Positions 33,280 to 50,733 of a stretch of 64,000 bases of DNA are shown here, in pieces. Source of the DNA: Ectothiorhodospiraceae bacterium BW-2 (GTDB lineage: Bacteria; Pseudomonadota; Gammaproteobacteria; Thiohalomonadales; Thiohalomonadaceae); NCBI GenBank assembly GCA_008375315.1, contig CP032507.1, forward strand, positions 868,001-932,000. The letters run 5' to 3'. A program made the position numbers and the translations under genes. Below the pieces are notes generated by a model that saw only the letters and a list, made by a program, of their open reading frames with translations, was not told the origin of the DNA and searched no databases. The number at the start of each line of letters is the position of its first letter. The stretch's first letter is position 1.

Positions 33280-33294
33280 GGGTGCCCGGTTTAA

Positions 33295-33687
33295 TCACGG
33301 TTCAGGTTGAAATACCTCTTCCAGTGTTTGGGCATCTAAAATATTATCCCCCCACTGCTCCAGCTCTTCGATTGTGGCGCTTGCCAGCTTCTGCCGTAGT
33401 TCGTTATTGAGCGCATTAAAACCAAAACGGCGGATAATTTGCCGCTCTAATAATTTGCGCTCACCTTTTTTTACGCCTCGTTGTTCCCCTTCCTGCTGCC
33501 ACTCTTGGGTCAACTGGGTCATTCGTTCTGCTAACATCGATTGTACCTCGCTTAACTCATTGATTTCTGGTAGTTTATCCGCCGGTGCCAGGCGTTTAAG
33601 TACCATACGGTTGATCCAGATAGTAAAAGCGCGACGCAGTTCACGATTGTGCTCCCCCTTAAGCTGTTTGGTCAGCCGGGCGACCAC
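33295..33687 (-). pseudogene. Truncated Rpn-like C-terminal duplicate
   Basis: 130 codons nearly identical to the last 130 of the upstream copy (ARLTKQLKGEHNRELRRAFT through EEVFQPEP), with a small indel in the Gln/Glu-rich stretch. The N-terminus is replaced by unrelated DNA near 33690-33720. Tandem duplication followed by truncation. A MITE half-end lies 100 bp away. Confidence 0.8.
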
Positions 33688-35297: not shown

Positions 35298-37631
35298 TTA
35301 AAACATACCTTCGAATAACTGATTTGACTCATCTCGTTCTACCATGGAGGCAAAAAACTCGACCTCTACCGACTCCTCCAGCACCATCACCTCATGGTTA
35401 GGGCGCTCTGTCTCTAGCGTCAGCGGTAACGAAATAACCCCCCGCTGCGCCTGATTTGCTACCACTAACAGATCCAGATTCAGCGCCTCATCTATCTGGT
35501 TAAAGCGATAGGGACCTGCCTGAACCTGACCGCTAAACGGCGGATGAGCCCTAATCTTAACCCGTTCAACCGTTTCGTGTAGCTGAATGACTAGCTGGAC
35601 AAGCCACTGCTGCTCGGCGACAGATCGCGCCCGATATCGCTTTGGCTGTAGCTGTAGCGGTGGTAACGGCTGCGGTGCGACCCACTCAGCCGAGAGTTCA
35701 AACAGCGGAATTAACAGCTCCTCCGGCGAGAGCCCACCATGAACTAACGGCCCTTTTCCGGCAAAACGAACCCGTTTCAGCGGCAACAGATAGTGTTTTT
35801 TGCCTAGCTGTAGCTGTTTAAAGCCCTCCTCTAGCAGCAGCAGCGGCTTAGTCAGAGTAGCCGTTCGCTCACGCAGCGCCCCCATCTGCTCCTTCACCTT
35901 ACCAGAGAGAGGCTCTAACTGCGAGATAGCCGTATGACCATGATCGGCACTCAATAAAATAACCGGCTGTTTACCGGCGCGATCACTTATCTCACACCAG
36001 CGGTTAACATCGTGGAGCAGATTAGCCAGTACCGGCTCAAGCTCCGACAGAAAGTGGCTGTAGCGCACCGCATCGTGCAACCGCTCATCGATACGGTTCT
36101 CCAGACAGATAACTAAGCGACAGGCGAGGGGAAAGGTGATCTGCTGCGCCGCCTGCCAATTTTTGATAACCACAATCTCGTCACAACTATCGAGAGTAGC
36201 GCCATAGATCCGCCACAGCCACTGCTCCATCTCCGACTCTAATCGATCTGCCTCTTCGCCACTGAGTAGTGCATTTTTACCTACTTCGGTGAGTGTCGGA
36301 TAGGGGGCGATTAAGAGCTGCTGCTGTAGCGTCAGCTCCTCACGCTGAATATGGCGCTTAAACTGCTGCTCTACCTGTTCGCTCTGTAACGCACTTAAGG
36401 CATCGACCATTAACACTATGACACGGTTATCGCGGTTTTGCAGATGGTGTTTTATCCGCTCTGATAGGCGTTGCCAATGAAGCTGCGAGCGACTAATGCG
36501 TGGTTGCTGGTTTAAGACCCAGCGGGCAAAGCTCTCCCCCACGGCAGCATCGGGCTCAATATCGTAAGCGAGCCGCTTTGCAGCATAGCTAAGATACCCA
36601 GCAGCCCAGTCGGTTGCTATTCGAGTGTCGGCCTGCGGCGGTAGTGGCGGGTAGTCGGCCAGACTGAGCTCGATCTCCTCTGCTAGGGCCATCGTTTCTG
36701 CGCTCTGTAGCTGCTGTAGCGCGGCGGCTAACGCCCGGGTGGCAAAACGGGCAATCGTGAGCGGCTCCAGCAGTGAACGCAGCAGCTTTAGCAGCTCAGG
36801 CCAGTCAAAACAGACCAGTTCGGCCAGAACCTCTGCCGCTAACTGCTGCTGCTCAATCTGATTAAGGGTCTGCTGCATCACCGCTAACCACGGTTTAACT
36901 AAATCGCCCGCCTCCGCCTGTGAGAGTGGTAGTGCGGGTAGCTGCTGTAGCAGAGTTAAATCTTCACGGCTTCCGGGGAGTGGATAGCTCATACCGTGGT
37001 GCAGTAAAAAGCTACGCAGCTTCTCCAGATAGCTCTGCTGGCTTAAGTAGTTAAGCTGCGCGATCACGCTCTTTGCTCGTACCAGATGCTGTAGCAGTGT
37101 GGTTGCAGCCGCTTCGTCGAGCCAGCGCTGCAGCTGTTTTATAAGACATTGTCGTAGCGGCGGCAGCTGCCATATTAGCAGCCGCTGTGGCTCTGTCAGC
37201 GCCAGAGCGGTTATCCACTCTGACCACGACAGTGAGTCATCTGACAGCTGCGGTACCAGCAGTGAGAGTAGTGCTTTGGCAGCGCTCGCCTCATCGTTTA
37301 GTTCTGGCAGCGGCTGCGGTTCTAACTGAAACAATCCCAATTCGACCAGCTGCGACTCACTCATCCAGCACGGCGCCGGCTGGCCAAAGCGTAACTTAAA
37401 CTCGCTGTAGGGGCGCACTTCACGCCACTCGACCCCATCAAAGCCGATAAAGTCGGCAAAGCGCTGCCGATAGGCCGGTTTCACCGGAATAGTTAACTCC
37501 TCTGCCACATCGGGCTGCAGCAGATAGTGGCGAATTTTAGACCTAGCACCACTAATCTGGTCCACACTCAGCGCTGAGGCCGCATTCGCACTGATCCCCC
37601 AAGAATCAGCCTCTAAAATGACCCGTTTCAC
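35298..37631 (-). CDS. pglZ: PglZ-domain protein of BREX-like system
   Basis: 777 residues from GTG 37631, overlapping the brxC stop (GTGA). The alkaline-phosphatase-like PglZ core is seen at NRVIVLMVDALSALQ (metal-binding Asp), IAPYPTLTEVGKNALLSGEE, and ILLSADHGHTAIS (Asp-His metal ligands). Long helical N-terminal half. PglZ is the hallmark protein of BREX systems and forms complexes with the other Brx proteins. Its hydrolytic activity has been shown to matter in some types. Translationally coupled to the ATPase gene upstream. Confidence 0.9.
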   Translation of the reverse strand: MKRVILEADSWGISANAASALSVDQISGARSKIRHYLLQPDVAEELTIPVKPAYRQRFADFIGFDGVEWREVRPYSEFKLRFGQPAPCWMSESQLVELGLFQLEPQPLPELNDEASAAKALLSLLVPQLSDDSLSWSEWITALALTEPQRLLIWQLPPLRQCLIKQLQRWLDEAAATTLLQHLVRAKSVIAQLNYLSQQSYLEKLRSFLLHHGMSYPLPGSREDLTLLQQLPALPLSQAEAGDLVKPWLAVMQQTLNQIEQQQLAAEVLAELVCFDWPELLKLLRSLLEPLTIARFATRALAAALQQLQSAETMALAEEIELSLADYPPLPPQADTRIATDWAAGYLSYAAKRLAYDIEPDAAVGESFARWVLNQQPRISRSQLHWQRLSERIKHHLQNRDNRVIVLMVDALSALQSEQVEQQFKRHIQREELTLQQQLLIAPYPTLTEVGKNALLSGEEADRLESEMEQWLWRIYGATLDSCDEIVVIKNWQAAQQITFPLACRLVICLENRIDERLHDAVRYSHFLSELEPVLANLLHDVNRWCEISDRAGKQPVILLSADHGHTAISQLEPLSGKVKEQMGALRERTATLTKPLLLLEEGFKQLQLGKKHYLLPLKRVRFAGKGPLVHGGLSPEELLIPLFELSAEWVAPQPLPPLQLQPKRYRARSVAEQQWLVQLVIQLHETVERVKIRAHPPFSGQVQAGPYRFNQIDEALNLDLLVVANQAQRGVISLPLTLETERPNHEVMVLEESVEVEFFASMVERDESNQLFEGMF

Positions 37632-40600
37632 GATGGCTCCTGCTGCTCTAACTGCTCTAACTGCTGCAATAGCTGACGCAATAGCTTAATGAGTGGCTGT
37701 CGCTCCCCCTGATAGCTGTAAACTAGCTGTTGAATCTGCTGTACCGCCTCCGACTCTGCGACTTTGAGCGGTAGCTGAGGCGTCGGCTGAGTGGGAGTGA
37801 GTTGTCGTGGCATACACCACTGTTCATACCAAAATTCAATTTTATGCACCAATTTATATAGATCAGCACGACTACACTGCGAAAAGGGTTTCTCACTCAC
37901 CTTCTCTAGTAGCTGAATCAGCACATCTTGCTGACTGCTGTTTTTTAACCAAGCAATAAGTAGCTGCTGAGGTGAAGTTTGTTCAAATGAGATAAGCCAC
38001 TTGTAAAATTTATCTCTATTCTCAAGCCGACGCAGCGCATCCTCTATACTCACTCTCGCCATCTCCAGCATCTGCTCTGGTTGCGTCATTAACGGACTTA
38101 ACTTAGAGCTCAGTTGGCCAATTTGAATATCGCTGAACAGAAACTCCTCCCCTAAAGCGATCTGTATCAGTTGCTGCCGTTTGTCATTACGCTCCTCATC
38201 CTCAGCATCTAAATAGTCGGCAAACGCCTTTGCTAGTCTATACCCATTTGTTCTGAGCCGTGTTATGAGTGCAGCACGATCAACCTCCTCTAGGCGACCC
38301 TCTATCATCTGATCCACCTCCTGATACTTTAGCTCTTTCGCCTCTTGGTACTCCGCTAACACGGCAGCAACTGCCCGCTGAGTCTGACGACACTCCTCTG
38401 CCGTCTCACAAGCCGCAAACTCAGCCGTTTCAGGAAACCGACGGCTCAACTCATCAGTAAACTGGTGGGCGCTCACCCCTTTTTGGCGACAGAGCCGCAG
38501 TAACGCCCGCGCCCGTTCGGTTAAATAGCTCGACTGACGAATCGCCTCCGGCTGCTGCCGTAGCTGCTCTTTTAAACGGTTAACCGTCCGTTTCAGCGCA
38601 CTGATATCGCCCGATTTAGCCGGCTCCCCCAGCACAAGTGCCACCACTGCCAACATCTTCTGCTGCTCGGCGCTAAACTCATCGAGCCTGATTTTGTACT
38701 TTGAATCCCGCCCAAACGCTTTAGCAAGCCTGACCTCATCCGACTCGTTAACTTTGCCACCGATCCAGACAAGGCGACTAATATCATCGCGTAGCGCCAC
38801 TGCCGCCAAAATACCGTGTACCACCGGCGGAATACCGTAGGGCTCGGCCACTAATGTATCCCTCAGTTTACTTAGAGGATAGGGATCGGTACGCGAGCAA
38901 GTCACCTCTTTTTTAATCAGCTCTAATATCGCTTTAACCGGCCCGTTACACTCGCTATCTTTTAACAGATCCCACCCTCCGGAGCGTTGACAAAACAGAC
39001 CATTAGCCCCGAGTACGCCATCAATTAGCGCTGCCGGCTCGTTGGTCTCAGTTTCGCCTAACAGATCATTTTGGTAGATTGGATTGTCATCAAAGTCGAG
39101 AATACGACGAATAATATTGGGAATAGTCTGTTTTGAACCCTCAATATAGCTCTCATCCCGTACCGCATTAAGGTTCATTGCTCTGATCTGAATCTCATTC
39201 GGATAGCGCTGTTTGGTCTGCTCGTTTAAGTAGCGCCGAAACGCCTGCCAGCTCTGTAGCGGTAGCGGTTCGGGCTCTCCTGCCTGCCAAATTTGACACG
39301 CATCGCTGTGTAACGCCTCACGGCCAAAGCTTCGCCCTAACTGCTCAATCATTTGGCGGCGGTTACTATCCCACCTCGCCTGTAGTTGTGAGCGCACCCC
39401 ATCATTCAGGCCGCTCTCCTCTAATAGCTGTTGCAGTGCCAGATAGCGCTGTGCCGCAGCACTGAGCTGTGCAATATCGATCCCCTCTTTCGGTAACCAG
39501 AAGTAGATCGGCGCCGTCGCCGCCGCTTTAATCACCTCTTGTGCCGCGATGCTCTGCTCTGACGACTCACTAAAGAGCCAAAACAGCCGGGCGCTCTCTC
39601 CGGTCGCCGGTTTCATGCCCGCTAATCTCTCCGGCAGCGGCAGTTCATGCCCGCTCACCCGGTAAGAGCGGATAATGCCGCACTCTGAGGGTTCTAAATC
39701 GTGCTGTCCGAACAGCGGCAGCAGATCGCTCTGTAGGGATTCATACCGTTTAAGCAGTGTAAACAGCGACAGCTCCTTAAACAGCTCTAACTTCTCTTCC
39801 AGCAGTGCGTCGATATCGACCCCGGCACCATCAATAAATGCCCAGCTACCGCTGACATCGTTTTTCCATAAAAAGCCGCCACTCTTAAGCCAAGCTAACC
39901 GGGTAAAGAGCTGTGGCACTTGTGCCTCATTGGCGGTTTGATCATAGAGCGCGGCCGCCATCACGGTTGCGGTTGCCTGAAACTGCTCTCCGAGTAGTCG
40001 TGCCCCTAAGACCAGCGTTACCACATCGAGCGCCTCCTGCCCCGCTTCGGTCGCCTTTAGCTCACTCGCTAAACGATCGTACAGCGCCATATCACGCCTA
40101 TAGTCATCATGTTTGCGGAACAGTTCAAGATAGAACTCAATCAGCTGCGGCAGACGAATCAGCTCCGCTCCGAACAGCGTGCCATCGGCATCGAGCGGCC
40201 GCTGTAGTAGCTGCGGTTTAATTTCACGGTAAAAGGTAAAAGCGGTACGGTTCGCCTGTGAGAATTGGGCAGAGAGGGTAAACAGCGCCGCAGCGGTGAG
40301 CGGATGGAGCGGGTAGGACTCTAAAATAATATGTTCCATATCGCCAGCGACACTCTGAAACAGCGGTAGCCCGCTACAGAGACTGCTTAACTGCTGCAAC
40401 CGCTGCTGCGACTGTGGCTGCTGTTGTAGTGCTAATCCCGTGTCACGCCAGTGGCGCTGTGATCCGAGCAGATGGTACCCCTCCGATTCTGAAGCCTTTA
40501 AACTAATCGGCAGACGGTGGCCAAAGCGCCCCTCAATGGTGCTGAGGCGATCTTTAACGCTCTGATCGGCTCCGTTACGGGCGGCATACTCTGCAATTGA

Positions 40601-41566
40601 GACATGGGTCATCGGAATAAACAGCGTGTGCCCCTGTTTCGGGGCGCAGCACTGCTCAATAAAGTCTTGTAGTGCGATCACTTCGTTAATCGCATTGCGC
40701 TCGGGCGAGTTGAGCATATCCTCTAAGGCGTGGCCAAACTCATCCCAAATCACGGCAATACCGCCATAGCCCTGTTCGGCTAACGCTTTGCCGGCCTCAA
40801 GAAAGGCGGGAATGGTGCTTTTACCACCGCTCCGTTCTGGGGAAAATACGGTACCCAGTGTGACTTTTTTATGCCATTTCAGAAAGGTCTCCAGCGCTGC
40901 TGGATCGTGCTGCTTGAGCTTTTGTGCCATTTCGGTAGTGGTCAACAGGTTACCGGCTAAATTCCACTGTGCTAAATCGGCATTTTGATAGTCGGGTTGA
41001 TGTTGTAGTATCTCTTCGAGGCGATGCGAGGCGGCATCAAATTCGGTGTCGCCTAAAATCGTGCTGACATCAAGCTGAGAATGCTCGTTTAGTGTATGGT
41101 AGAGCGCTTCTAGCAGTCGGTGTAGCAGAGGCTGACCATTCGATTTATAGAGTGATACTAACAGGTAGGGTCTGGCATCGGCATCGTTGTGACTGTCGAG
41201 AAAGGTCTGTCGTAGCTTTTGTGCCGTCTCTCCATGGCTACTGCTCTCTAAGCGGCGCAGAAAATCACTAAATTCGCTACCATAGACGCCGTCACGCAGC
41301 ATCAGGCCAATCACGACTCCAAGGTGGCTCTTACCGCTACCATAGGCGCCATAGAGGTTAATCGCCCGCATATCGGCAGTTGCAGCCGGGGTGACTGCCT
41401 CACACAATTTGTCAAATACTGCGATTGACGATTTTATCGGTACATAACCATTAATATACCTGTTATCTTTACGGTTAAGTCCCTGTTGCAATACAATCGC
41501 AACCCCTAATGAGGTGTTTTGTTCAATATCTATGACATCGCCAACAGTTTTAATGTCCGGTTGCAT
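37628..41566 (-). CDS. brxC: BrxC/PglY-like P-loop ATPase
   Basis: 1312 residues, ATG 41566 with AGGGGG 7 nt upstream. Walker A NLYGAYGSGKSHLG near residue 72, Walker B GIAVIWDEFGHALEDML near 275, and MTHVSIAEYAARNG afterwards; a long helical remainder ends in a Gln-rich tail. Size, motif order and position next to pglZ and brxL identify a BrxC/PglY-type ATPase. Combined with the PAPS-reductase-family gene and absence of a PglX methylase, this fits the type 4 BREX arrangement (brxP, brxC, pglZ, brxL). Confidence 0.87.
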   Translation of the reverse strand: MQPDIKTVGDVIDIEQNTSLGVAIVLQQGLNRKDNRYINGYVPIKSSIAVFDKLCEAVTPAATADMRAINLYGAYGSGKSHLGVVIGLMLRDGVYGSEFSDFLRRLESSSHGETAQKLRQTFLDSHNDADARPYLLVSLYKSNGQPLLHRLLEALYHTLNEHSQLDVSTILGDTEFDAASHRLEEILQHQPDYQNADLAQWNLAGNLLTTTEMAQKLKQHDPAALETFLKWHKKVTLGTVFSPERSGGKSTIPAFLEAGKALAEQGYGGIAVIWDEFGHALEDMLNSPERNAINEVIALQDFIEQCCAPKQGHTLFIPMTHVSIAEYAARNGADQSVKDRLSTIEGRFGHRLPISLKASESEGYHLLGSQRHWRDTGLALQQQPQSQQRLQQLSSLCSGLPLFQSVAGDMEHIILESYPLHPLTAAALFTLSAQFSQANRTAFTFYREIKPQLLQRPLDADGTLFGAELIRLPQLIEFYLELFRKHDDYRRDMALYDRLASELKATEAGQEALDVVTLVLGARLLGEQFQATATVMAAALYDQTANEAQVPQLFTRLAWLKSGGFLWKNDVSGSWAFIDGAGVDIDALLEEKLELFKELSLFTLLKRYESLQSDLLPLFGQHDLEPSECGIIRSYRVSGHELPLPERLAGMKPATGESARLFWLFSESSEQSIAAQEVIKAAATAPIYFWLPKEGIDIAQLSAAAQRYLALQQLLEESGLNDGVRSQLQARWDSNRRQMIEQLGRSFGREALHSDACQIWQAGEPEPLPLQSWQAFRRYLNEQTKQRYPNEIQIRAMNLNAVRDESYIEGSKQTIPNIIRRILDFDDNPIYQNDLLGETETNEPAALIDGVLGANGLFCQRSGGWDLLKDSECNGPVKAILELIKKEVTCSRTDPYPLSKLRDTLVAEPYGIPPVVHGILAAVALRDDISRLVWIGGKVNESDEVRLAKAFGRDSKYKIRLDEFSAEQQKMLAVVALVLGEPAKSGDISALKRTVNRLKEQLRQQPEAIRQSSYLTERARALLRLCRQKGVSAHQFTDELSRRFPETAEFAACETAEECRQTQRAVAAVLAEYQEAKELKYQEVDQMIEGRLEEVDRAALITRLRTNGYRLAKAFADYLDAEDEERNDKRQQLIQIALGEEFLFSDIQIGQLSSKLSPLMTQPEQMLEMARVSIEDALRRLENRDKFYKWLISFEQTSPQQLLIAWLKNSSQQDVLIQLLEKVSEKPFSQCSRADLYKLVHKIEFWYEQWCMPRQLTPTQPTPQLPLKVAESEAVQQIQQLVYSYQGERQPLIKLLRQLLQQLEQLEQQEPS

Positions 41567-41630: not shown

Positions 41631-42077
41631 CTATAACTGGTCAAATTCGAAACGGGAGAGCCATAGCCGGACGCCGTCATTAAAGTTATGTTCCATTATA
41701 AAATAGCGTGGCATATTCATGTTTTCGATACTCTGTTTGGTGATAATAATCACCGGGTAGCTGTTATAACTTTCAGCCAAACCGCTCCATAGTTGATTAA
41801 TGCGCGGAGGTGTCCAGTGGTAGAACCACTGTTCGGGTTCACTAATAATCAGTCCGGTGCGTGAGTCTGACTCTAATGCGAGTCTGCAGTAGTGATCCGG
41901 TGAGATATCTTCTGCCGGTGCCGGTTCAGTTTCCGGATTGTTCCAGTGTTCAAAATTATCGAAGTGAGCTGTCATTTCGTTAGAGAGGGAGACAACTCGT
42001 TGCATTGTAGGGGCGGTTAGGATAGCGGATTGGTATCGCATACCCTGAATTCGACTATTCAGTTCTGTCAAATCCAT
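41631..42077 (-). CDS. Small conserved-looking protein in defence operon
   Basis: 148 residues, overlapping the upstream gene's end by 10 nt and lying 64 bp before brxC. No family recognised. Visible: SAILTAPTMQRVVSLSNEMT, an acidic linker with Pro, LIISEPEQWFYHW, and YPVIIITKQSIENMN. An alternating alpha/beta pattern suggests a small folded domain. Its position in a BREX-like operon suggests an adaptor comparable to BrxA/BrxB-like small subunits, but there is no sequence evidence for homology. Confidence 0.7.
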   Translation of the reverse strand: MDLTELNSRIQGMRYQSAILTAPTMQRVVSLSNEMTAHFDNFEHWNNPETEPAPAEDISPDHYCRLALESDSRTGLIISEPEQWFYHWTPPRINQLWSGLAESYNSYPVIIITKQSIENMNMPRYFIMEHNFNDGVRLWLSRFEFDQL

Positions 42078-43450
42078 AGCACATCAACATCCTTCAGCAG
42101 ATTATACAACGCATCTTCCGCAGATATATTTATTGAAGAAAAATCAACTGTTTGCAAATTAGCTACCTCATTAAATCTAATGCCAGAACCCAGATCATTA
42201 TGCCCTATTTTTCTTAACTTTTTTCTGAATTCATCTGAAGACATACACAAACAAGAGTTTAACCCTATATTTATTAATTCGGAAAAGTCCAAACTGCTTC
42301 TTGTGGGAAAAAATCTGCTCTTAAATAGCTGAATAGCATAAATAAAAACACTATCAGAACAATTAACATCACCTATACGATAATTTTGAGTTCCAGATAT
42401 CTGTGATTTTTCTAAAATCCCCATCTCAGCTAATGGTTTATCACCCTCAAACATTTTCAATACACCACCAGATACAGATTCTAGCGTACTCTGCTTATAA
42501 TTTTTCTTTTTATAAACAGAATCATCATAAAATAAAGCGTTAATAATATTTTTTCTATCCAACCAAGAACCATAATTATTCACTAAAACTTTAATTACAT
42601 CAAAATATGGTAAGCTATTACTTGACAAACATAAATGAATGTGTATAGCCCACCATGTTGATGCATTTTCCATTTCAGGATCAATATTTCTTATACATCT
42701 ACCCAAATAACTTAATTCAAATTTATTTGCATTACTCTTTTTCTTCTGTATAATTTCAGCAGCCAAAAGCCAGCTTTTTATAGTTTTAAGCCGATTAGTA
42801 CCAGCAATAAATTCAATTCGAGATTTTCTCAAATTATCCTTAACAAACGCATCCGGAAAGCCATCTATAATATCTAGCCCTTTACGCATCCACCATTTTG
42901 AAGTGGGCTCACCTTCATTTGACATTAATACTGCATCGTCGCTCACGTCAATCACCTTTGTATCATCAAATATGAAATTATCATTATCAAAGAAAAGAGA
43001 ATAGAAAGAATCATATACACTCTTATTAGCAGGTAAAATGTAATTTTTCAAAAACCATAAAGACAAACGGTATGTTTTTTTCCTATCGGCAATTAGCGCA
43101 GAATATACATCCAGACTAAATCCAGCTTTAACCCCTTTTAAAAGAATCTTTCTGCTTACATCACCAGAGCTGTTTTTAAGCAAAGTAAAATCTGAAATAA
43201 TATCCCAAAAGCCATCTGATTCAAGACGCACAAAAGGATAACTTAATATCAAACCATTATTTCCTAATAAATCACTCAAAAATTGCTCATAAACAACATA
43301 CTCATTTAATCTTTCTTTGCCTTTCATAACAAAATACAGCGCCATCAAAATAAGCACAGGCTTATTTATCGATTTCAGTCCTTTACCCTGATAAACCTTA
43401 GTCTGCTTTATTATTTCAAAAACATTATTATTAATATCGGCCTTGTTCAT
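42068..43450 (-). CDS. Sulfur-binding-domain-like (SBD) protein fused to DUF4007-like domain
   Basis: 460 residues from ATG 43450 (MNKADINNN); the frame reaches 43543 but that part is MITE sequence. Residues 20-90 (NKPVLILMALYFVMKGKERL, LLGNNGLILSYPFVRLESDG followed by FW) follow the pattern of the sulfur-binding domain that reads phosphorothioated DNA in ScoMcrA-type enzymes (PILLLyALgr, yPFwRLqnDGlW), with AGFSLDVYSALIADRKKTYR after it. From about 200 a DUF4007-like pattern appears (IAGTNRLKTIKSWLLAAEII, LGRCIRNIDPEMENASTWW) parallel to 48657-49568. No HNH motif. Very AT-rich compared with its neighbours, so probably acquired separately. Likely a reader of sulfur-modified DNA (inference). 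Confidence 0.7.
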   Translation of the reverse strand: MNKADINNNVFEIIKQTKVYQGKGLKSINKPVLILMALYFVMKGKERLNEYVVYEQFLSDLLGNNGLILSYPFVRLESDGFWDIISDFTLLKNSSGDVSRKILLKGVKAGFSLDVYSALIADRKKTYRLSLWFLKNYILPANKSVYDSFYSLFFDNDNFIFDDTKVIDVSDDAVLMSNEGEPTSKWWMRKGLDIIDGFPDAFVKDNLRKSRIEFIAGTNRLKTIKSWLLAAEIIQKKKSNANKFELSYLGRCIRNIDPEMENASTWWAIHIHLCLSSNSLPYFDVIKVLVNNYGSWLDRKNIINALFYDDSVYKKKNYKQSTLESVSGGVLKMFEGDKPLAEMGILEKSQISGTQNYRIGDVNCSDSVFIYAIQLFKSRFFPTRSSLDFSELINIGLNSCLCMSSDEFRKKLRKIGHNDLGSGIRFNEVANLQTVDFSSINISAEDALYNLLKDVDVLWI

Positions 43451-43548
43451 CGTTCCGTCAGGCTTGCGGTTTCTATGATGCCCCTCCAACCAAGTGTGAT
43501 TCAAACCGTGCTTTTTAAACGACCATCTCTTCCGGTAATCCACGGCGT

Positions 43549-43577
43549 GTAGGGGCGGGTTTCAAACCCGCCCCTAC
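43549..43577. repeat. Perfect 29-nt palindrome
   Basis: Arms GTAGGGGCGGGTTT and AAACCCGCCCCTAC around a single C. Such GTAGGGGCGGGTT palindromes are dispersed repeats in many bacterial genomes. It lies between the sulfurtransferase gene and the sulfur-reader gene and could form a strong hairpin that attenuates or stabilises the operon transcript. Confidence 0.85.
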
Positions 43578-43588
43578 GAAACCCGGGT

Positions 43589-43696
43589 CTTGTTCATCGT
43601 CTCGTCACCCTCATGAGGCATGATTCCCTCGCCTTCCCTCTCCGCCTCTCCCAGTGGGAAGGGGGTGGAGGGGAGCTGACGAAGAGATGAACAAGG
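43589..43696. mobile_element. MITE-like element, second complete copy
   Basis: About 108 bp between CTTGTTCATCGTCTCGTCA and the complement of CCTTGTTCATCTCTTCGTCA. Same ends as 31848-31963. Together with the half-end at 43442-43462 and the palindrome, it fills the only sizeable gap in the defence operon (43451-43714). Confidence 0.7.
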
Positions 43697-43714
43697 CCTT
43701 AATATCCATAAAGC

Positions 43715-44497
43715 CTAAAGCGTACAAATCAAACAACCTTCGTTATCATCATCAAGATTATTAATTAACTTTTTCTTTTTAACCAACAACTCCTTCTCTC
43801 TGTTTTTTTTCGCTTTTGCTTCAATTTCATCTCGCCGCTTAATCAAATCCTCTAAATATTCTCCCTGCGACCAAGTGTAACTTCTTCCTTTATCTTTATG
43901 AAACTGCTCATACTCCATTGCTTTTTCAAATAATTTGGGATGATTATCATAAAGCCCCACCCACTCCTCTTTTCTTTGAAAAAAGCAAAAATAGCATCCT
44001 GATCGGCTTCTCCAGTCATAATATTTCGGCAGACCTATACCCGATTTTTTAAGAATATCGACAATATCCTCTTTTTTTAGCCCATCCTCTATAAATGGAT
44101 ATCTGGCTGATATATTCGATTTAGTTGAAATATAGCCCTTTCTGTGTGGTTCATCGGCTCTTATGCCAACATAAGTTATTGCGGTATCATCACCCACATA
44201 CTCTTCAAACGGCTCTATTTTTAGTTTCTGGGTACACCAGCGACTTTTATTAGTAGGCAAAAAGTTTTCGTTTAAATCAAAGTAGTAGTTAAAGTCTCTT
44301 TCAGCATTAATTTTGACTATCGGCTTCCCCAAAAAATCCTCTAACATATCAATAAACTCAAGCGTCTCAGGTAACTCCGCCCCGGTGTCGGCAAAAAAGT
44401 ACTCCATCTCCGGCACCCGATCCCGCATATAGATCGCTAACGCCGAACTATCTTTCCCTCCGGAAAGGCCTAACAGATGCCGAACTTTATCGCTCAT
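43715..44497 (-). CDS. brxP: PAPS-reductase-family sulfurtransferase (BrxP/DndC-like)
   Basis: 260 residues from ATG 44497. PP-loop SGGKDSSALAIY activates the substrate by adenylation. Conserved Cys in SRWCTQKLKIEP and a CxxC in RSGCYFCFFQRKEEW are candidates for Fe-S or persulfide chemistry as in DndC. A lysine-rich tail ends GCLICTL. Much shorter than typical DndC (around 450-550 residues, from memory). In BREX type 4 a PAPS-reductase protein, BrxP, replaces the PglX methylase. With a cysteine desulfurase in the same operon, sulfur transfer to DNA or tRNA-like substrate is likely. Start overlaps the HEPN gene end by 11 nt. Confidence 0.83.
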   Translation of the reverse strand: MSDKVRHLLGLSGGKDSSALAIYMRDRVPEMEYFFADTGAELPETLEFIDMLEDFLGKPIVKINAERDFNYYFDLNENFLPTNKSRWCTQKLKIEPFEEYVGDDTAITYVGIRADEPHRKGYISTKSNISARYPFIEDGLKKEDIVDILKKSGIGLPKYYDWRSRSGCYFCFFQRKEEWVGLYDNHPKLFEKAMEYEQFHKDKGRSYTWSQGEYLEDLIKRRDEIEAKAKKNREKELLVKKKKLINNLDDDNEGCLICTL

Positions 44498-44990
44498 GAC
44501 CACTCTCCCACACTTGATTAATAAACCCTTTCCGCTGTAGATAGTTAGATATCATTTTCAAATAACTTAATATAGTTTTAGACTCATGCAGCACCATATT
44601 GAGTCTTTCAACCTGCCGTGTCACCTGATCAGGATAGTGATGAGAAAATTTATTCCTTAACTGAACCGCAATACTAAAGTCATCAGCAGAATGAATAACC
44701 CCTAACTTCTCCATTAATAGCGCTTTATCCCGATTTGACTTTTGACTTACATCCTCCTGCTCAACAATAGCAATTAAACGAAAAAGATGATCCTGAACCA
44801 TAGCTGTCAACTGCGAATAGCGCAAAATTAGTGCATCAAACGCCTCCTCCTGCTCCGTTGTTAAATCGAGTAATGTAGTCTCATTAAGCGGAAATAGCGG
44901 ATAACATTTATCTAGTGACTCTTTTAATTTTGTTCCCCTTTTAACACAAGCACTATAATATTCGATTAACAATGGTTCTGCTTGACTCAT
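44487..44990 (-). CDS. hepT: HEPN-domain RNase toxin (HepT-like)
   Basis: 167 residues, all helical. Carries RNKFSHHY, an exact RX4HXY motif of HEPN ribonucleases, with preceding VIHSADDFSIAVQL helix. Overlaps the MNT gene by 4 nt (ATGA) and the sulfurtransferase gene on the other side. HEPN-MNT pairs are type VII toxin-antitoxin systems in which the MNT enzyme polyadenylylates the toxin near its motif Tyr. Here the pair is embedded within a BREX-like operon. Confidence 0.87.
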   Translation of the reverse strand: MSQAEPLLIEYYSACVKRGTKLKESLDKCYPLFPLNETTLLDLTTEQEEAFDALILRYSQLTAMVQDHLFRLIAIVEQEDVSQKSNRDKALLMEKLGVIHSADDFSIAVQLRNKFSHHYPDQVTRQVERLNMVLHESKTILSYLKMISNYLQRKGFINQVWESGHER

Positions 44991-45277
44991 ATTAATCTCA
45001 CTCCCGTCTCTAACGCTATCTTCTGTATAGTAGTCATCGGCTCATCAGGATTTTTCACCAACAGATCTACCTTCTCACCACAACTATTATTCAGCCGCGA
45101 CTCCAACCGAATCATATCGGGATAAGAGAGCCGCTGCTTCGGCTCTAAATAGAGATCAATATCACCGCCGCGCTTATTATCATCAACCCGCGAGCCAAAG
45201 AGCCATAGAGACTCTACATCTACTGCATCTGACAGTACCTGTTTTATAGTGACTAGCAGCGGTTCAGGCAGGCGCAT
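44987..45277 (-). CDS. mntA: MNT-type minimal nucleotidyltransferase antitoxin
   Basis: 96 residues. LWLFGSRVDDNKRGGDIDLYL contains the canonical GSR and DID of the pol-beta-type minimal nucleotidyltransferases, and a third acidic residue is likely in KVDLLVK. Upstream of and overlapping the HEPN toxin. Begins 26 bp after the stop of the large ATPase. Predicted to neutralise HepT by AMPylation. Confidence 0.88.
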   Translation of the reverse strand: MRLPEPLLVTIKQVLSDAVDVESLWLFGSRVDDNKRGGDIDLYLEPKQRLSYPDMIRLESRLNNSCGEKVDLLVKNPDEPMTTIQKIALETGVRLI

Positions 45278-45303: not shown

Positions 45304-48300
45304 TTACCCCTCACCCGTCACCCCCTGCAATAGCGACGCCATCAGCGCCAGCCGTGACGACTCATCGAGATCGGCTAATACCCCCTCTACCTGCTGCTGC
45401 TTCTGCTGTAACGCCTGCTGCTGTGACGGCGTGAGTGTCACCACCCGGCTGCGCTCGCCATGGCGGCTATCGACCCACTTTAGCAGCACCACCTCATCCT
45501 CTGCCTGAGGGTTCTCATCAATCGCCAAGCTCAGTTGATGCAGATTTTTCAACTTTTCGGCCACCGCTTTCAGCGCCACCTCCGCCTCCAGCAGTCGGGC
45601 ATCATTCCACTTTGCCGGCGGCGCTCTGCCGAGCAGCGTGGCAATCGACTCCAGCCACTTTTGATCCTCATGGCCGCGATCAGTTAAACGGCGAATAAAG
45701 GCACCTAACCCCTGTTTATCGGGAGTTAACCGCTCTAACCCCTGATAGCGCTGCTGTAGCTGCTGGCGCAGCGTGACGGTCGGGAGCGGCTCCGGCCCCT
45801 CATGCTCCGGCAGCAGTAGTGTCAGCAGATGGCTCTGCCAGCGCCGCAGTAGCAGATCGTAAGCCCCTTTTAGCTCCCGCAGTGCCTGAATCAGCCGCTC
45901 TATAAACTGCTCCTCAACCGCTCTGTCGTTTAGCGAGGAGAACCCGCACGCCTGCGGTAGCGCTTCAAATAGTAGCTTGCCGGGGCTCTGCGCCTGCTCA
46001 AAAGCGTCACGCACCGCTTCCGCTTGTGGCGAGAGGGAGCGGGTTTGACGACTATACTCCGGTAGCCCGTTAATAAAGCTCACCAGCGGTTTCACGATAT
46101 CGATCAGCCGCGCATCCTCTCTCACCCGTCCGACCACCGAATCAAGGTAGCGGTTAAACAGATCAGCCCGCAGCCCTTCGAGCTGAAACCGCTCTAAGGC
46201 AAAAAATTTAGGCCGGCGGCAGAGCATCTCCATCTGCGCTAAGCTGAGCCGCTCACTAAAGCGACCCTCATAGTAGAGCGCCACATCGCGGTTATTAATC
46301 AGCAGGTAGAGCAGAATAATTAGCGGCAGCACCCCCTCTTTAATCCCGAAGGGGGGCTGTTTCAGTTCGGTATAGAGTGCTTCGAGCTCTACCCCACTGC
46401 CCTCGTTACGCGCTAGTTTGGCATCAATCGCGGCAAATACGGGTAGAAAACCGCACTTATCATCCTGTTTAGTCGGCAGCGCAAACTGATAGCGGCCATC
46501 AAGGCACTGATGCAGACCACTCTCTAACAGCAGTGAGCGGTAGAGACTCTTCTCCGCTGGGTATTTTTGAATCCCTAAATCGGGCTGATCGGCCGCCTCC
46601 AGCATCGCTTTGATTAGCTTTTTTCGCCCAGTATTGGCACTGGTAGAGAGCTTATCCCGATTAATAAGCTCATTATCGATTTTAGGGCTCTGTGGGTAAC
46701 ATGCTGCCATCCATTGACTTAGGTAGTGCTGCAACTGGCGCCGATCGGTGATATCGAGCTGCGCCCGCCCTCGGTAGAACCACTGCTGCACTTTACGATT
46801 ATGTGTGCTCTGTAAAAGCTCATTTAGCTGCTGCCTGAGTCGCATCGCACTGTTTTGCAGCCAACTCTGATACTCTTTTTGCGCCACCGCATCACTACTC
46901 AGTTCGGCATGGCGCTGCGGTAGCTGCAGCAGGGCGTATCTCTCTTTCGCCGCTTCCAGCAGTCGCTCCGCTAACTCACAGACAACTAAAATATCGTGCC
47001 TACTCTTAGGGGTAGGTGGGGGCTCATCGTTAACCCGTCGCAGATAGTACCAAAGGGTCGGCACCTCTGCCGGCTGCTGCAAGGCGGTAACCGTCGTGCT
47101 ATCAATAAACTGGCGTAGATAGTAGCGCAGCGTACCGCGCTCTATGGTTAAACGGCGGGTCACTAACGGGGAGAGCGGCAGCTCCTGATTCAGAACCGCC
47201 GCTATCGATAGCTCCCCCTGCTGCTTCAGCTCACTCTCTAACGCCTGTTGCAGATTAAAATCACTTCCGGCCCAGAGACGATACTCCTGATTAAAGCGGC
47301 GATAGGTGATCACCGACTGCCGTTCCAGAGCCGTCAGCATCTTATTGAATCCCTTGCCAAACAGCGCTTTAAGTAGCGGTTGACTCGCCTTAAAGCCCTG
47401 CTGCGCCTGAATCAGATTGAGCAGGCCGATGGTTTTAATCAGCTCCCGTCCCCTCGGCAGTGACGGCTGATGGCCAAAGCGCTCCAGTGCGGTCTCTATC
47501 TCTAACCAGCGGTGGCGGGTGAGCGGGTCACTCCTCACTCCCGGCTGATTGAGGGTAAAGTAGTCGTAGAGCTGCCACGGCTTAATCCACTCTCCGGCCT
47601 GCCCGCTATCGAGCTGCTGCTGTAGCCCCGCCGGCTCACGACTGCCAAGATAGGTAAACAGGGTACGCTCATTTTGTGCCACCTTCTGACACAACAGCGG
47701 TAGCAGTAACAGCGTCAGCGGATGGAGTGGCTGGCAGCGATGAAACAGCTCAAGCGCGTCACCACGACTTAAATGCCCCGGCAGTGCCTGCTGCGCCATC
47801 AGCAGCTCAACCCACCGCTCAGTCTCGCCCCTCACAGCGCTATCGGGCTCGCTAAAGGCGCTCGCCACCACCTGCAGCACCTGTTCGGCCGGTTCGATAA
47901 AGGCGATACTCTCATAGCGCCCCTGCACTTTGGTCCACTCATCACGCTGTCGCTTAGCCATGCCGTGGCTATAGTACTCAAACGCCTGATGCAGCATGAC
48001 CACGATATAGATCGGCTTGGTCAGCGTCGCTTCAGCCAGAAGCTGTAGCAGATGAATGCCATTCGCGCCACTATGGTGCGCCTGATACTCTAAAAATTTA
48101 CCCAGCTCGTCGATCACTAGCAGCACCCCCTCGCCCTGCTGCTCACACCAGCGCTGCTGTAGCGCCTCTAGCTGTGCCATCAGTTGACTCAGGGTTAGTT
48201 GTTCAGCTAACTGCTGCGCCATATCAGCCTGTAGTTGACTATCGAAAACAGCCGCCTGCTGTAGCGCCTGCTGTAGCCGATACTCCAGCGCTTCGGGAGT

Positions 48301-48657
48301 ACCGTTAATCATCACCGGCAACAACCCTCTAGCGTTAAACTGCTGTTTAAAACGCTGTAGTAGTCTAGCATCGAGCATCTGTAGCGCCGGAGCGGCAAGT
48401 TCGAAGGTGTCACTACCACCGCCACTGCTTAATGCGGCTAGATAGAGGGCAAAGGCCGATTTACCCGAACCATAAGGGCCAATAAGTGCCCAAGCACGGG
48501 GCGACTCGGTGTGCTCAAAACCGGCTGCAATCTGTTTTAGGGTCTGTAGCGCCCGCGAAGTCGGCAGGTAGGCGGTCACGGTTTCGGGGCGAAACTGATC
48601 CCGCTGTATATTAATCGCGCGGGTATAGAGGCTATTAACCCGAGAACATGATGCCAT
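45304..48657 (-). CDS. Large P-loop ATPase of the sulfur-linked defence operon
   Basis: 1117 residues. N-terminal P-loop: Walker A ALIGPYGSGKSAFALYLAAL near residue 62, Walker B GVLLVIDELGKFLEY near 180, followed by IYIVVMLHQAFEYY. The remainder is long and helical with Gln-rich stretches. Similar in plan to BrxC (GxYGSGKS then DELGKF) but distinct in sequence. It starts at TAATG, overlapping the DUF4007 stop by one base. It has no SMC-like hinge, so it is not a DndD-type protein. DUF499/DptH-like relation is possible and untested. Confidence 0.75.
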   Translation of the reverse strand: MASCSRVNSLYTRAINIQRDQFRPETVTAYLPTSRALQTLKQIAAGFEHTESPRAWALIGPYGSGKSAFALYLAALSSGGGSDTFELAAPALQMLDARLLQRFKQQFNARGLLPVMINGTPEALEYRLQQALQQAAVFDSQLQADMAQQLAEQLTLSQLMAQLEALQQRWCEQQGEGVLLVIDELGKFLEYQAHHSGANGIHLLQLLAEATLTKPIYIVVMLHQAFEYYSHGMAKRQRDEWTKVQGRYESIAFIEPAEQVLQVVASAFSEPDSAVRGETERWVELLMAQQALPGHLSRGDALELFHRCQPLHPLTLLLLPLLCQKVAQNERTLFTYLGSREPAGLQQQLDSGQAGEWIKPWQLYDYFTLNQPGVRSDPLTRHRWLEIETALERFGHQPSLPRGRELIKTIGLLNLIQAQQGFKASQPLLKALFGKGFNKMLTALERQSVITYRRFNQEYRLWAGSDFNLQQALESELKQQGELSIAAVLNQELPLSPLVTRRLTIERGTLRYYLRQFIDSTTVTALQQPAEVPTLWYYLRRVNDEPPPTPKSRHDILVVCELAERLLEAAKERYALLQLPQRHAELSSDAVAQKEYQSWLQNSAMRLRQQLNELLQSTHNRKVQQWFYRGRAQLDITDRRQLQHYLSQWMAACYPQSPKIDNELINRDKLSTSANTGRKKLIKAMLEAADQPDLGIQKYPAEKSLYRSLLLESGLHQCLDGRYQFALPTKQDDKCGFLPVFAAIDAKLARNEGSGVELEALYTELKQPPFGIKEGVLPLIILLYLLINNRDVALYYEGRFSERLSLAQMEMLCRRPKFFALERFQLEGLRADLFNRYLDSVVGRVREDARLIDIVKPLVSFINGLPEYSRQTRSLSPQAEAVRDAFEQAQSPGKLLFEALPQACGFSSLNDRAVEEQFIERLIQALRELKGAYDLLLRRWQSHLLTLLLPEHEGPEPLPTVTLRQQLQQRYQGLERLTPDKQGLGAFIRRLTDRGHEDQKWLESIATLLGRAPPAKWNDARLLEAEVALKAVAEKLKNLHQLSLAIDENPQAEDEVVLLKWVDSRHGERSRVVTLTPSQQQALQQKQQQVEGVLADLDESSRLALMASLLQGVTGEG

Positions 48658-49568
48658 TAGTGATAGTGATCCTGCAGTAGTGTAAGACTCTGTTGAGTCT
48701 GCTGTCGGCGGTAGAGCTGATGCAGACCGGCGGTATCGCGCTGCTCAAAATCGGGTAGATAGTGCTGCAACGCCTGTTCGAGGTGGTAGCTAAACCCCTC
48801 CTCATTTAGGCGAAACACGGCCCCCGGTGCGACAGCACTGCCACCCCCACCTCCCCCTCCACCACCGCCGTAGAGTAGCTCCTGCACTGGAACTGCCGGC
48901 TGTTGTGGCTGCTGCTCAAACCGATCTAAAATCGCAAACGCCAGCGCGATCGTCGGTAACTCCTCACGCCAACCACGCTGACTCTGAAAGCGTCTGCCGG
49001 GGAGCGGCTGAATCAGCTCCAGCAGCGACAGAGGCGAGTCGAGTCCATCCTCAGCCTGCGCTGCGTTTAGCTTAGCGCTACGGCTATACATTCGTAGCAG
49101 ACAGGAGAGATCTGATTTAAGGGAACTATCCGATTTAACCTGCGGCTCTAAAAAGCGCTGTAACGACGCCAGCAGCTCCGTTTCGCTAAAATCGGGCACA
49201 GCATAGTGGTTAAAAAACCAATAGAAACCAGTGGCTAAGGTCGCGTTAGAGCCGATTAACCAGTGGAGAATCCATAAAGTTGCCTCATCCTCTAAATAGG
49301 GATCGCCGTACTTACCTAAAATCGCCTCTCCTAAAGCGGTCGGGATAAAAACACCACTGCCCTGCTCACGAACCAGACGAGTCACCCGCAGCCAGTAACG
49401 AATAGCGTTAACCATATTTTTACCGACACCGAGCTTCACCACAGCACTCTCCTGTTTAAATAGCTGAGCATCGTTCTGAAGCTGCAAAAACCCTTTTGGC
49501 AACCAGCCGAAACGGAGCGGAAAGCTCTCGTGGCGACCAAATGTAGTCTGAGGCAAATTATCTTGCAT
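48657..49568 (-). CDS. DUF4007-family protein
   Basis: 303 residues. The start FGRHESFPLRFGWLPKGFLQ, the central AVVKLGVGKNMVNAIRYWLR, and LEDEATLWILHWLIGSNATL are the DUF4007 signature. These proteins occur beside PAPS-reductase and desulfurase genes in DNA sulfur-modification and BREX-like loci. A ten-glycine run (LYGG through GGSA) links to a helical C-terminal part. The gene overlaps the desulfurase by 11 nt. No enzymatic motif seen. Probably DNA- or partner-binding. Confidence 0.82.
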   Translation of the reverse strand: MQDNLPQTTFGRHESFPLRFGWLPKGFLQLQNDAQLFKQESAVVKLGVGKNMVNAIRYWLRVTRLVREQGSGVFIPTALGEAILGKYGDPYLEDEATLWILHWLIGSNATLATGFYWFFNHYAVPDFSETELLASLQRFLEPQVKSDSSLKSDLSCLLRMYSRSAKLNAAQAEDGLDSPLSLLELIQPLPGRRFQSQRGWREELPTIALAFAILDRFEQQPQQPAVPVQELLYGGGGGGGGGGSAVAPGAVFRLNEEGFSYHLEQALQHYLPDFEQRDTAGLHQLYRRQQTQQSLTLLQDHYH

Positions 49569-50733
49569 CGTTAACCTTTTCGATTAATTGCTCTAAATGG
49601 TGAATAAAGTAGTCGATCTCCGCCAGCGTATTGTAGTAACCGAAACTGATCCGTACTGCGCCATAGAGCTCGCGTGCAGTGATACCCATGCCGCGCAGCA
49701 CATGCGACGGCTCAATCGTACCACTGCTGCAAGCCGAACCGCTGGAAAAAGCGGCCACCGCTTCGCACTGGTTTAGCAGCGCATCGCTATCGTACCCTGC
49801 TACCGAAAAGTTAATGATATAGGGCGAACCGCCACTGAGTGGACTATGGATCTGCACGCTCCGCTGAGAGCTAGCCCACGCCATAAAGCGCTGTTGCAGA
49901 GTACGAATGTGGGCTAACTCCGACTCACGCTGCCTCTGGCAGCGCTGTAGCGCCGCGACTAAGGCACTAATTTGGTGGGTCGGTACCGTGCCGGGGCGCA
50001 GCCCAAACTCCTGGCCGCCGCCATAACAGAGCGGTTGTAACCGTAAATGGCGGCGCTGGCGTACAATCAGTGCGCCAACTCCCTTCGGGCCATAAAATTT
50101 ATGCGCTGAGATCGAGAGTAGATCAACCGCTATATCCGCTAGGTTTAGCGCAAATTTACCGACAGACTGCGCCGCATCGACATGGAACAGAACTCCCGCT
50201 CTAGCGGCGATAGCGGCGATTTCGGTTAACGGCTGCATCACCCCGGTTTCGTTATTAACCGCCATCACCGAGATGAGTAGCGTCTCGGGTCGTAGCGCAG
50301 ATTTTAGCTCAGCGATATCGATTAACCCACTGCCGTCCACCTGCAGATAGGTAAGACTAAACCCCTCTGCCTCCAGCGCATCGCAACACGCCAAGACCGC
50401 TTTATGCTCTGTCGTAACGGTGATAAGATGGGTGCCGTGGTGACGATTAGCCCGCATTATCCCAGTTAGCGCCAGATTATTGGCCTCAGTCGCACCCGAA
50501 GTGAAGATAACTTCATCGGCATCACACCCTAACAGCTCAGCAGTTGCCATACGATTCTGCCTAAGCTGCTGTTTTGCTAAATGGCCATAGCGATGCGCAG
50601 AAGCGGGATTGGCAAACTGATTTGAAGCGAGGGTTAAGTGACGACAGAGTGCCTCAGCCACCTCAGGGTGAAGCGGTGTCGTTGCGGCGCTATCAAAATA
50701 GATCGGAAGTTGTATTGATGTCGTGGTTGCCAT
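49558..50733 (-). CDS. dndA: Cysteine desulfurase (DndA/IscS-like)
   Basis: 391 residues, class V aminotransferase fold. PLP-binding Lys in SISAHKFYGPKGVG, substrate His in TVTTEHKAVL, and the persulfide-forming Cys in FSSGSACSSGTIEPSH. It would supply persulfide sulfur to the PAPS-reductase-family protein 5 kb further down the operon. A housekeeping IscS role cannot be excluded by sequence alone, but no isc genes are near and the 3' end overlaps the DUF4007 gene, which points to the defence function. Confidence 0.87.
   Translation of the reverse strand: MATTTSIQLPIYFDSAATTPLHPEVAEALCRHLTLASNQFANPASAHRYGHLAKQQLRQNRMATAELLGCDADEVIFTSGATEANNLALTGIMRANRHHGTHLITVTTEHKAVLACCDALEAEGFSLTYLQVDGSGLIDIAELKSALRPETLLISVMAVNNETGVMQPLTEIAAIAARAGVLFHVDAAQSVGKFALNLADIAVDLLSISAHKFYGPKGVGALIVRQRRHLRLQPLCYGGGQEFGLRPGTVPTHQISALVAALQRCQRQRESELAHIRTLQQRFMAWASSQRSVQIHSPLSGGSPYIINFSVAGYDSDALLNQCEAVAAFSSGSACSSGTIEPSHVLRGMGITARELYGAVRISFGYYNTLAEIDYFIHHLEQLIEKVNDAR

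Follow-up and report, generated by a model that had tools for sequence, protein, structure and literature searches.

A protein of 460 amino acids (aa) without a nuclease, encoded at positions 42068–43450 (minus strand) of a 64,000-nucleotide stretch of the Ectothiorhodospiraceae bacterium BW-2 genome (GCA_008375315.1, contig CP032507.1, forward-strand positions 868,001–932,000; hereafter the window, to which all coordinates refer), joins a sulfur-binding domain (SBD) to a DUF4007 domain. The N-terminal SBD (residues about 1 to 155; 42986–43450) belongs to the family that recognizes phosphorothioate (PT) DNA in restriction enzymes, and the C-terminal domain (residues about 181 to 455; 42086–42910) has the fold of the DNA-scanning protein SspB. 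The gene lies between the genes of an SspABCD PT writer and a cassette of bacteriophage exclusion (BREX) type that includes a second SspC/BrxC-like ATPase (BrxC'), PglZ and BrxL. With somewhat less than even confidence, we propose that the fusion is a PT-reading version of a BREX DNA-scanning subunit, in which the mark would be read as self and the effector kept off. The frame of 460 codons is intact, from an ATG at 43450 to a stop codon ending at 42068; the mechanically called open reading frame (ORF) extends beyond this ATG to a GTG at 43543, and the extra stretch falls within a dispersed repeat.

When the GTG-initiated ORF was compared with NF045808, a model of PT-DNA restriction enzymes, its residues 44–161 matched (E 6.6e-10, 38.6 bits) profile positions 6–130 of 284, which correspond to the SBD part and not to the HNH part. 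The fusion shares with this family the N-terminal SBD, lacks the HNH nuclease, and scores below the curated cut-off of 180 bits. Moreover, hhalign comparison of the window SBD alone with a six-row SBD profile built without it gave a probability of 95.7 (E 9.9e-9), the window SspB serving as negative control (probability 0.1 against the same profile), and a home-made SBD hidden Markov model (HMM), likewise built without the window sequence, retrieved the fusion from a set of 42 operon proteins (E 1.7e-8) and from one of 3785 ORFs (E 1.8e-6). Searches of the PDB with phmmer, conducted with the first 215 residues of the GTG-initiated ORF and with the whole protein, found neither SBD nor SspB, and the resemblance is thus visible only by profiles. 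Beyond the SBD part of NF045808, Pfam, PADLOC and NCBIfam scans matched no nuclease family in the fusion, and the Pfam scan no HNH family; the BW-2 genome holds no other NF045808 match at E 0.001.

The C-terminal half of the fusion matched PF13182 with an E value of 2.4e-16 and 60.1 bits (gathering cut-off 27), which places it in the DUF4007 family, and its motifs IAGTNRLKTIKSWL and LGRCIRNIDPEMENASTWW align with GVGKNMVNAIRYWL and LGEAILGKYGDPYLEDEATLW of SspB. A full-length model of the fusion (18 alignment rows) was confident at residues 181–450 (block means of the predicted local distance difference test, pLDDT, 68–94) and not over the SBD; as MAFFT placed SBDs onto DUF4007 when both were mixed, the two halves were modelled separately. 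The model of the DUF4007 half matched SspB (6juf) with Z 22.9 (root-mean-square deviation, rmsd, 3.7; 275 residues aligned), followed by FokI (Z 9.3) and by 3bhw (Z 8.0, rmsd 4.0, 176 aligned). The latter structure is identified as BrxA in PMC9240713, whose relevant passages give SspB as the next structural match of BrxA, at a DALI Z of 8.0, and PMC12839542, on the basis of modelling, ascribes to DUF4007 a BrxA-like three-part DNA-binding architecture. Two motifs that we noticed in this analysis as marks of SspB, and which have no published definition, are both lacking in the fusion, which is therefore not an SspB proper. The GVGKNM-type motif occurs in 31 of 34 SspB-type rows (some of them near-copies), in none of five second DUF4007s and in neither of two further ones; for the HETF-type motif the corresponding counts are 33 of 34, one of five (T. 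roseum) and none of two. The original prediction, made from the sequence of the window, had claimed that an SBD is fused to a domain paralleling the neighbouring DUF4007 protein and that no HNH nuclease follows, and these claims are borne out within a single reading frame.

The SBD half was modelled from ten SBD rows. In a Foldseek search with this model, 11 of the 21 matches, ranks 1–9 included, were ScoMcrA, SprMcrA or Hga SBD entries, and VIA-align placed SBDs in the first seven of 11 rows (Z 8.3 to 4.8; next row Z 3.4), the highest Z of 8.3 being reached with both 5zmo (rmsd 5.6, 135 aligned) and 7cc9 (rmsd 3.9, 128 aligned). Since the input alignment contained known SBDs, the model supports, and does not prove, an SBD fold. 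In ScoMcrA, the sulfur is held by H116, R117, Y164, P165 and A168; P165 and H116 count among the best-conserved positions, and most relatives carry lysine for R117 (PMC6224610). Alignment to ScoMcrA suggests that the window pocket is formed by N29 and K30 (43361–43366, minus strand; H116-R117 in ScoMcrA), Y71 and P72 (43235–43240, minus strand; Y164-P165) and R75. Asparagine at the H116 position recurs in an SBD-HNH-type protein of locus L053, and arginine at the A168 position in L030. Two checks that the original prediction had proposed for the SBD assignment can thus be answered: the fold comparison with the ScoMcrA SBD did not refute it, and of the sulfur-recognizing residues K30, Y71 and P72 are kept while His116 is replaced by Asn29.

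Relatives of the fusion were sought in 398 genomes of the phylum, 350 of the class and 20 of the order, samples that overlap and whose counts are not summed. PF13182 gave 12 matches in 11 phylum genomes, the window gene alone having a frame longer than 350 aa; 16 matches in 13 class genomes, with two each in BW-2 (G000) and in the genomes G603 and G651; and, in the order, only the window's own (1/20). G651 carries the same fusion (30.3% identity over 446 aa) in the order sspB-sspC-sspD-fusion-small gene-BrxC'-PglZ-BrxL, a recurrence that lends further support to the fusion as originally predicted. Identities to the window are 38.5% for sspB, 38.6% for sspC, 68% over 215 aa for sspD, 20% for the small gene (E 1.6e-8), 38.9% for BrxC', 28.6% for PglZ and 63% for BrxL. 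The NF045808-type signal of its SBD is stronger (3.8e-25 vs 6.6e-10), and its pocket, like that of the related SBD of G603, reads His, Lys, Tyr, Pro. In G651, sspC and sspD are separated by a DUF4351 gene, and sspD and the fusion by an IS66 transposase gene; the stretch taken yielded no sspA-like ORF. Another long-frame DUF4007 gene (G529, 439 aa) had no SBD match. Direct sequence searches with the window fusion found no full relative in genome contigs, viral contigs or phages; they gave one partial DUF4007 match in plasmids and, among the 398 phylum genomes, partial matches in three others, at their PF13182 genes.

SBDs without a nuclease were also found in other arrangements. The locus of G603 comprises an sspA-like gene, sspBCD, an SBD-SspF fusion of 792 aa, SspG, an SspH/DndH-like HerA protein, a second DUF4007 standing alone (298 aa) and a BrxC-like ATPase, with no match to PglZ or BrxL in the 26.3 kb taken. 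Its SBD is 41% identical over 155 aa to that of G651, and the protein that carries it, in this SspBCD-FGH locus, is an SspF-like STAND ATPase (L120:9305–11680). Furthermore, two viral contigs, L079 and L085, hold a free nuclease-less SBD gene near sspBCD. The first (L079:8519–9028) is also near a MORC-like ATPase gene, and the second (L085:15155–15685) directly follows sspD and precedes a PbeA-like helicase gene. As the PT effector, PbeABCD was considered and dropped, its published description, as far as it was covered, containing no BREX parts. All five nuclease-less SBD genes (window, G651, G603, L079 and L085) lie near ssp genes, all having been found by looking in such loci; SBD fragments elsewhere (L068; plasmids) were left out of this set.

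The operon around the fusion, all on the minus strand, begins with a PT-associated putative methyltransferase gene (50835–53399; TIGR04096), followed by sspA, sspB, sspC, a nucleotidyltransferase pair, sspD, the fusion, a 148-aa gene, brxC', pglZ and brxL. The genes of the SspABCD PT writer are present together: the cysteine desulfurase SspA (49558–50733; PADLOC SspA 1.9e-136, DndA 2.2e-131), the canonical DUF4007 protein SspB (48657–49568; PF13182 9.9e-73, PADLOC 8.9e-81), SspC (45304–48657; PADLOC SspC 1130 bits, E 0) and the PAPS-reductase-like PT sulfurtransferase SspD (43715–44503; PADLOC SspD 2.3e-109). Downstream of the fusion, the 148-aa protein (41631–42077) occupies the position of brxB and may have its role; similarly placed small genes occur in G651 (missed by a home-made small-protein HMM and found by blastp), P. 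galeata, T. roseum and Abditibacteriota, and no Pfam family was found for the window protein. BrxC' (37628–41566), an AAA ATPase with the Walker A motif GAYGSGKS, matches chiefly SspC profiles (PADLOC SspC 5.7e-47, BrxC 7.2e-5) and no NCBIfam model. Matches of two other genomes, G307 and G253, to this second ATPase were dropped as IstB-like transposition proteins, judged by eye from the ORFs. PglZ (35298–37631), with DHG and HGG motifs in the alignment, barely passes PF08665 (25.4 bits, cut-off 25) and falls short of the strict type 4 BREX PglZ model NF033445 (23.4 bits, cut-off 140); BrxL (33871–35289) scores 391.2 bits with TIGR02688 (cut-off 329.3). In the PADLOC scan, none of the operon proteins included was of PglX type, and the ten window proteins covered gave no match to SspE or SspF-H. 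The BW-2 genome further holds a second, partial BrxL match, three DUF262 matches and one SspD. The BREX-type neighbours named in the original prediction, PglZ, a BrxC-like ATPase and BrxL, are therefore present, and its description as a BREX-like operon can be refined: judged by gene content, the operon is an SspABCD PT writer plus a separate DUF4007'/BrxC'/PglZ/BrxL cassette.

The fusion has a GC content of 31%, against a window mean of 53.6% (standard deviation 5.2, 750-base windows), and belongs to an AT-rich block (42068–44990) in which sspD has 38.7% and the gene preceding it 37.5% GC, the other operon genes ranging from 45 to 56%. In G651 the fusion is likewise low (36.8% vs 43.7%), as is sspD (36.8%), and the low GC in both genomes suggests, without proving it, that the sspD-fusion block has a history of its own. 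Sequence comparison revealed, between sspD and the fusion, the dispersed repeat mentioned above (43439–43698), with inverted ends of about 23 nt (87% complementary) and a perfect hairpin inside; elsewhere the genome has six near full-length copies that are 92–98% identical to it, two more at 86% and numerous partial copies. One of its terminal repeats overlaps the 5' end of the fusion gene and provides its ATG. Between sspC and sspD, a minimal nucleotidyltransferase gene (44987–45277; PF18765, 2e-10) adjoins a small gene (44487–44990; weak PADLOC match to PD-T4-2_B, 0.0077), probably for what we take to be a HEPN partner, which makes a toxin-antitoxin-like pair (44487–45277) where G651 has its DUF4351 gene. 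Downstream of brxL, at 32401–33687, lie two adjacent genes with near-identical ends, the one at 32401–33279 encoding a YhgA-like transposase/DUF4351 protein.

Similar cassettes occur in other phyla. Plasmids of P. galeata and T. roseum carry sspB-sspC-sspD, a second DUF4007, a small gene, BrxC', PglZ, BrxL and a cysteine desulfurase. In P. galeata, extra genes separate sspC from sspD, and one separates sspD from the second DUF4007; the cassette of Annamia is partial, with BrxC' in pieces. On an Abditibacteriota plasmid (L071:1733–14383), DUF4007, a small gene, BrxC', PglZ and BrxL stand behind a DrmMI/type IIG-like methyltransferase, and the 32 kb taken showed neither a second DUF4007 nor an SspC. 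In phylogenetic trees, the window BrxC' paired with that of G651 (support 100 in the Shimodaira-Hasegawa-like approximate likelihood-ratio test, SH-aLRT) outside the main SspC group (10 rows, 99), and the window DUF4007' paired with that of G651 (100/100), the window SspB grouping instead with the SspB of G603 and G651 (100/99). A recent duplication of the local sspB and sspC was rejected by these trees, in which BrxC' and DUF4007' group apart from the window SspC and SspB, the latter falling with SspCs and SspBs of other origin.

In the mechanism that we favour, SspABCD would put PT marks into host DNA, and a second scanning platform, separate from the writer and made of the BrxA-like DUF4007 domain of the fusion, BrxC' and the small protein, would travel along DNA and feed PglZ and BrxL. 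By analogy with BREX, the DUF4007 part would play the role of BrxA on this second BrxC platform. The fused SBD would sample the DNA backbone; upon entry of a PT sulfur into its pocket the complex would register self and the effector would stay off, and DNA scanned without any mark being met would be handled as phage. We infer PT-DNA binding by the window SBD from its sequence, given the Lys, Tyr and Pro kept in its pocket and the His-Lys-Tyr-Pro set of G651 and G603; complex formation and an inhibitory effect of the mark would be further steps, the original prediction having allowed for either licensing or blocking of the BrxC/PglZ/BrxL machinery. The direction of the effect is suggested by the related SBD of G603, which sits on SspF, since Vibrio SspFGH damages DNA that lacks PT and proves toxic when PT is missing (PMC8092258). 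Moreover, the host marks its own DNA, so that reading the mark as a target would presumably be suicidal, and the absence of a detected SBD from the Abditibacteriota cassette beside a methyltransferase also points this way.

Several observations weigh against this reading. The SBD-half model is of low confidence (mean pLDDT 55.1, predicted template modelling score 0.56), its best Foldseek E value is 0.047 (probability 0.98), none being at or below 0.001, and the window has asparagine in place of His116, one of the most conserved residues of ScoMcrA. The repeat at the start of the fusion gene may alter its expression. No SBD was detected in the cassettes of P. galeata, T. roseum, Annamia and Abditibacteriota (operon proteins at E up to 10, locus ORFs at E up to 0.01), so the SBD reader is not obligatory for the cassette. 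Second DUF4007s formed one clade in 3% and 0% of 200 bootstrap trees (two trees), and BrxC' rows in 6% of the bootstrap trees of one analysis, this clade being absent from the best tree of the other; as these clades are unsupported and the branches long, it is gene order and profiles that speak for homology of the cassette across phyla. The window pair and the DUF4007s of the other cassettes may have been recruited separately, in parallel rather than by homology, or long branches may hide their kinship. In G651 (L119:2293–4555 and L118:14210–15592), the IS66 element cuts sspD in two just upstream of the intact fusion gene, a search of the genome revealed no further full-length sspD, and the effector frames are open, although a free effector should be toxic if the mark restrains it; the insertion may also silence the fusion and effector genes. 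Finally, in a different PT reader, SspE, the mark switches the protein on (PMC9646914).

This last precedent leads to the strongest rival, an SspE-like effector in which the SBD binds host PT and activates the cassette, for example through ATPase stimulation or DNA loading, so that unmarked phage DNA is attacked. In SspE, a PT-reading hydrophobic cavity stimulates GTPase activity and then nicking, and the full-length protein alone is non-toxic (PMC9646914). The SBD sits on the scanning subunit rather than on the effector subunit, and the fusion and effector frames retained by G651 despite its split sspD would be tolerable for an effector that needs PT. Because of the split sspD and the lack of another full copy we rated activation by the mark higher, and restraint by it lower, than we otherwise would have. 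However, the related SBD of G603 is carried by SspF, part of a module that in the relative studied attacks DNA lacking PT as its default, and a similar cassette adjoins a methyltransferase and shows no detected SBD; we consider activation unlikely and restraint of the effector the better, if tentative, choice.

It is rather improbable that the SBD no longer binds PT and is a mere structural extension: the asparagine in place of His116 and a profile signal weaker than that of G651 would fit such a loss, but Lys30, Tyr71 and Pro72 are retained, the SspABCD genes share the operon, and the G651 fusion keeps His-Lys-Tyr-Pro. A shade less probable still is a helper of the writer, which would direct SspBCD in copying or spacing the PT marks once DNA has been replicated, BrxC'/PglZ/BrxL acting separately. 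The fusion is the gene next to sspD and shares its low GC in both genomes, but its DUF4007 lacks the motifs typical of SspB, and in P. galeata, T. roseum and Abditibacteriota a small gene and BrxC' come after the similarly placed lone DUF4007. A chimaera or assembly artefact was rejected on the strength of G651, where both the fusion and its gene order recur.

Among the closest known systems, type 4 BREX (brxPCZL) joins PT writing with BrxC, PglZ and BrxL and has DUF4007 as a core part (PMC12839542, section 34). It shares with the window a PT writer of PAPS-reductase type, DUF4007, a BrxC-like ATPase, PglZ and BrxL; in type 4 BREX, however, DUF4007 and the PAPS reductase often form one fused protein (PMC12839542), whereas in the window SspD and DUF4007 are separate genes. 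The Methanosphaera example (L073, the only one examined) has one DUF4007 and one BrxC, compared with two DUF4007s, one with an SBD, and two BrxC/SspC-type ATPases in the window. Systems pairing SspABCD with SspFGH or SspE share the writer, and G603 adds an SBD-SspF to such a SspBCD-FGH locus, but the window effector is of BREX type (BrxC', PglZ, BrxL). ScoMcrA, SprMcrA and EcoWI (SBD-HNH or SBD-SRA-HNH) have the same SBD family and most pocket residues; in contrast, the fusion has no HNH, its SBD is mounted on an SspB-like scanning domain, and the genome carries its own PT writer. Type 1 BREX has the gene order brxA-brxB-brxC. The fusion resembles its BrxA in fold (3bhw, as above) and in its place before a small gene and a BrxC-type ATPase, but is of the DUF4007 family by sequence and carries a PT reader.

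Reading by such proteins is not a new idea, since PMC10853773, in the passages concerned, describes the SBD as a winged-helix domain and proposes that SspB-related proteins with three winged helix-turn-helix units may discriminate modification; in another BREX-related system, modification-reader domains are fused to DUF3780 (PMC12839542). In the literature covered, which took in neither supplements nor PMC12914056, we met no account of an SBD joined to DUF4007 or SspF. Thus the window locus looks like a variation on known PT-defence and BREX systems, in which the placing of an SBD on DUF4007 is apparently undescribed. PT marks occupy only about 10–15% of target sites (PMC11931770), which raises the question of self/non-self discrimination in PT-based defence. 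The reader domain of the fusion, separable from scanning and effector, comes from a family whose structures are solved and whose pocket is defined, so that a single pocket mutation could tell a PT brake from a PT trigger. A BREX-type system thereby gains a candidate reader subunit with a chemistry already worked out for related domains, and the fusion points to where other swapped readers may be sought. The SBD may, just short of an even chance in our estimate, be a transferable reader cartridge carried by different Ssp/BREX-type effector complexes, on SspF, on a BrxA-like DUF4007 or as a free subunit, which would make a cassette of a kind paired elsewhere with a methyltransferase check for sulfur marks by means of a second scanning platform, alongside that of the writer.

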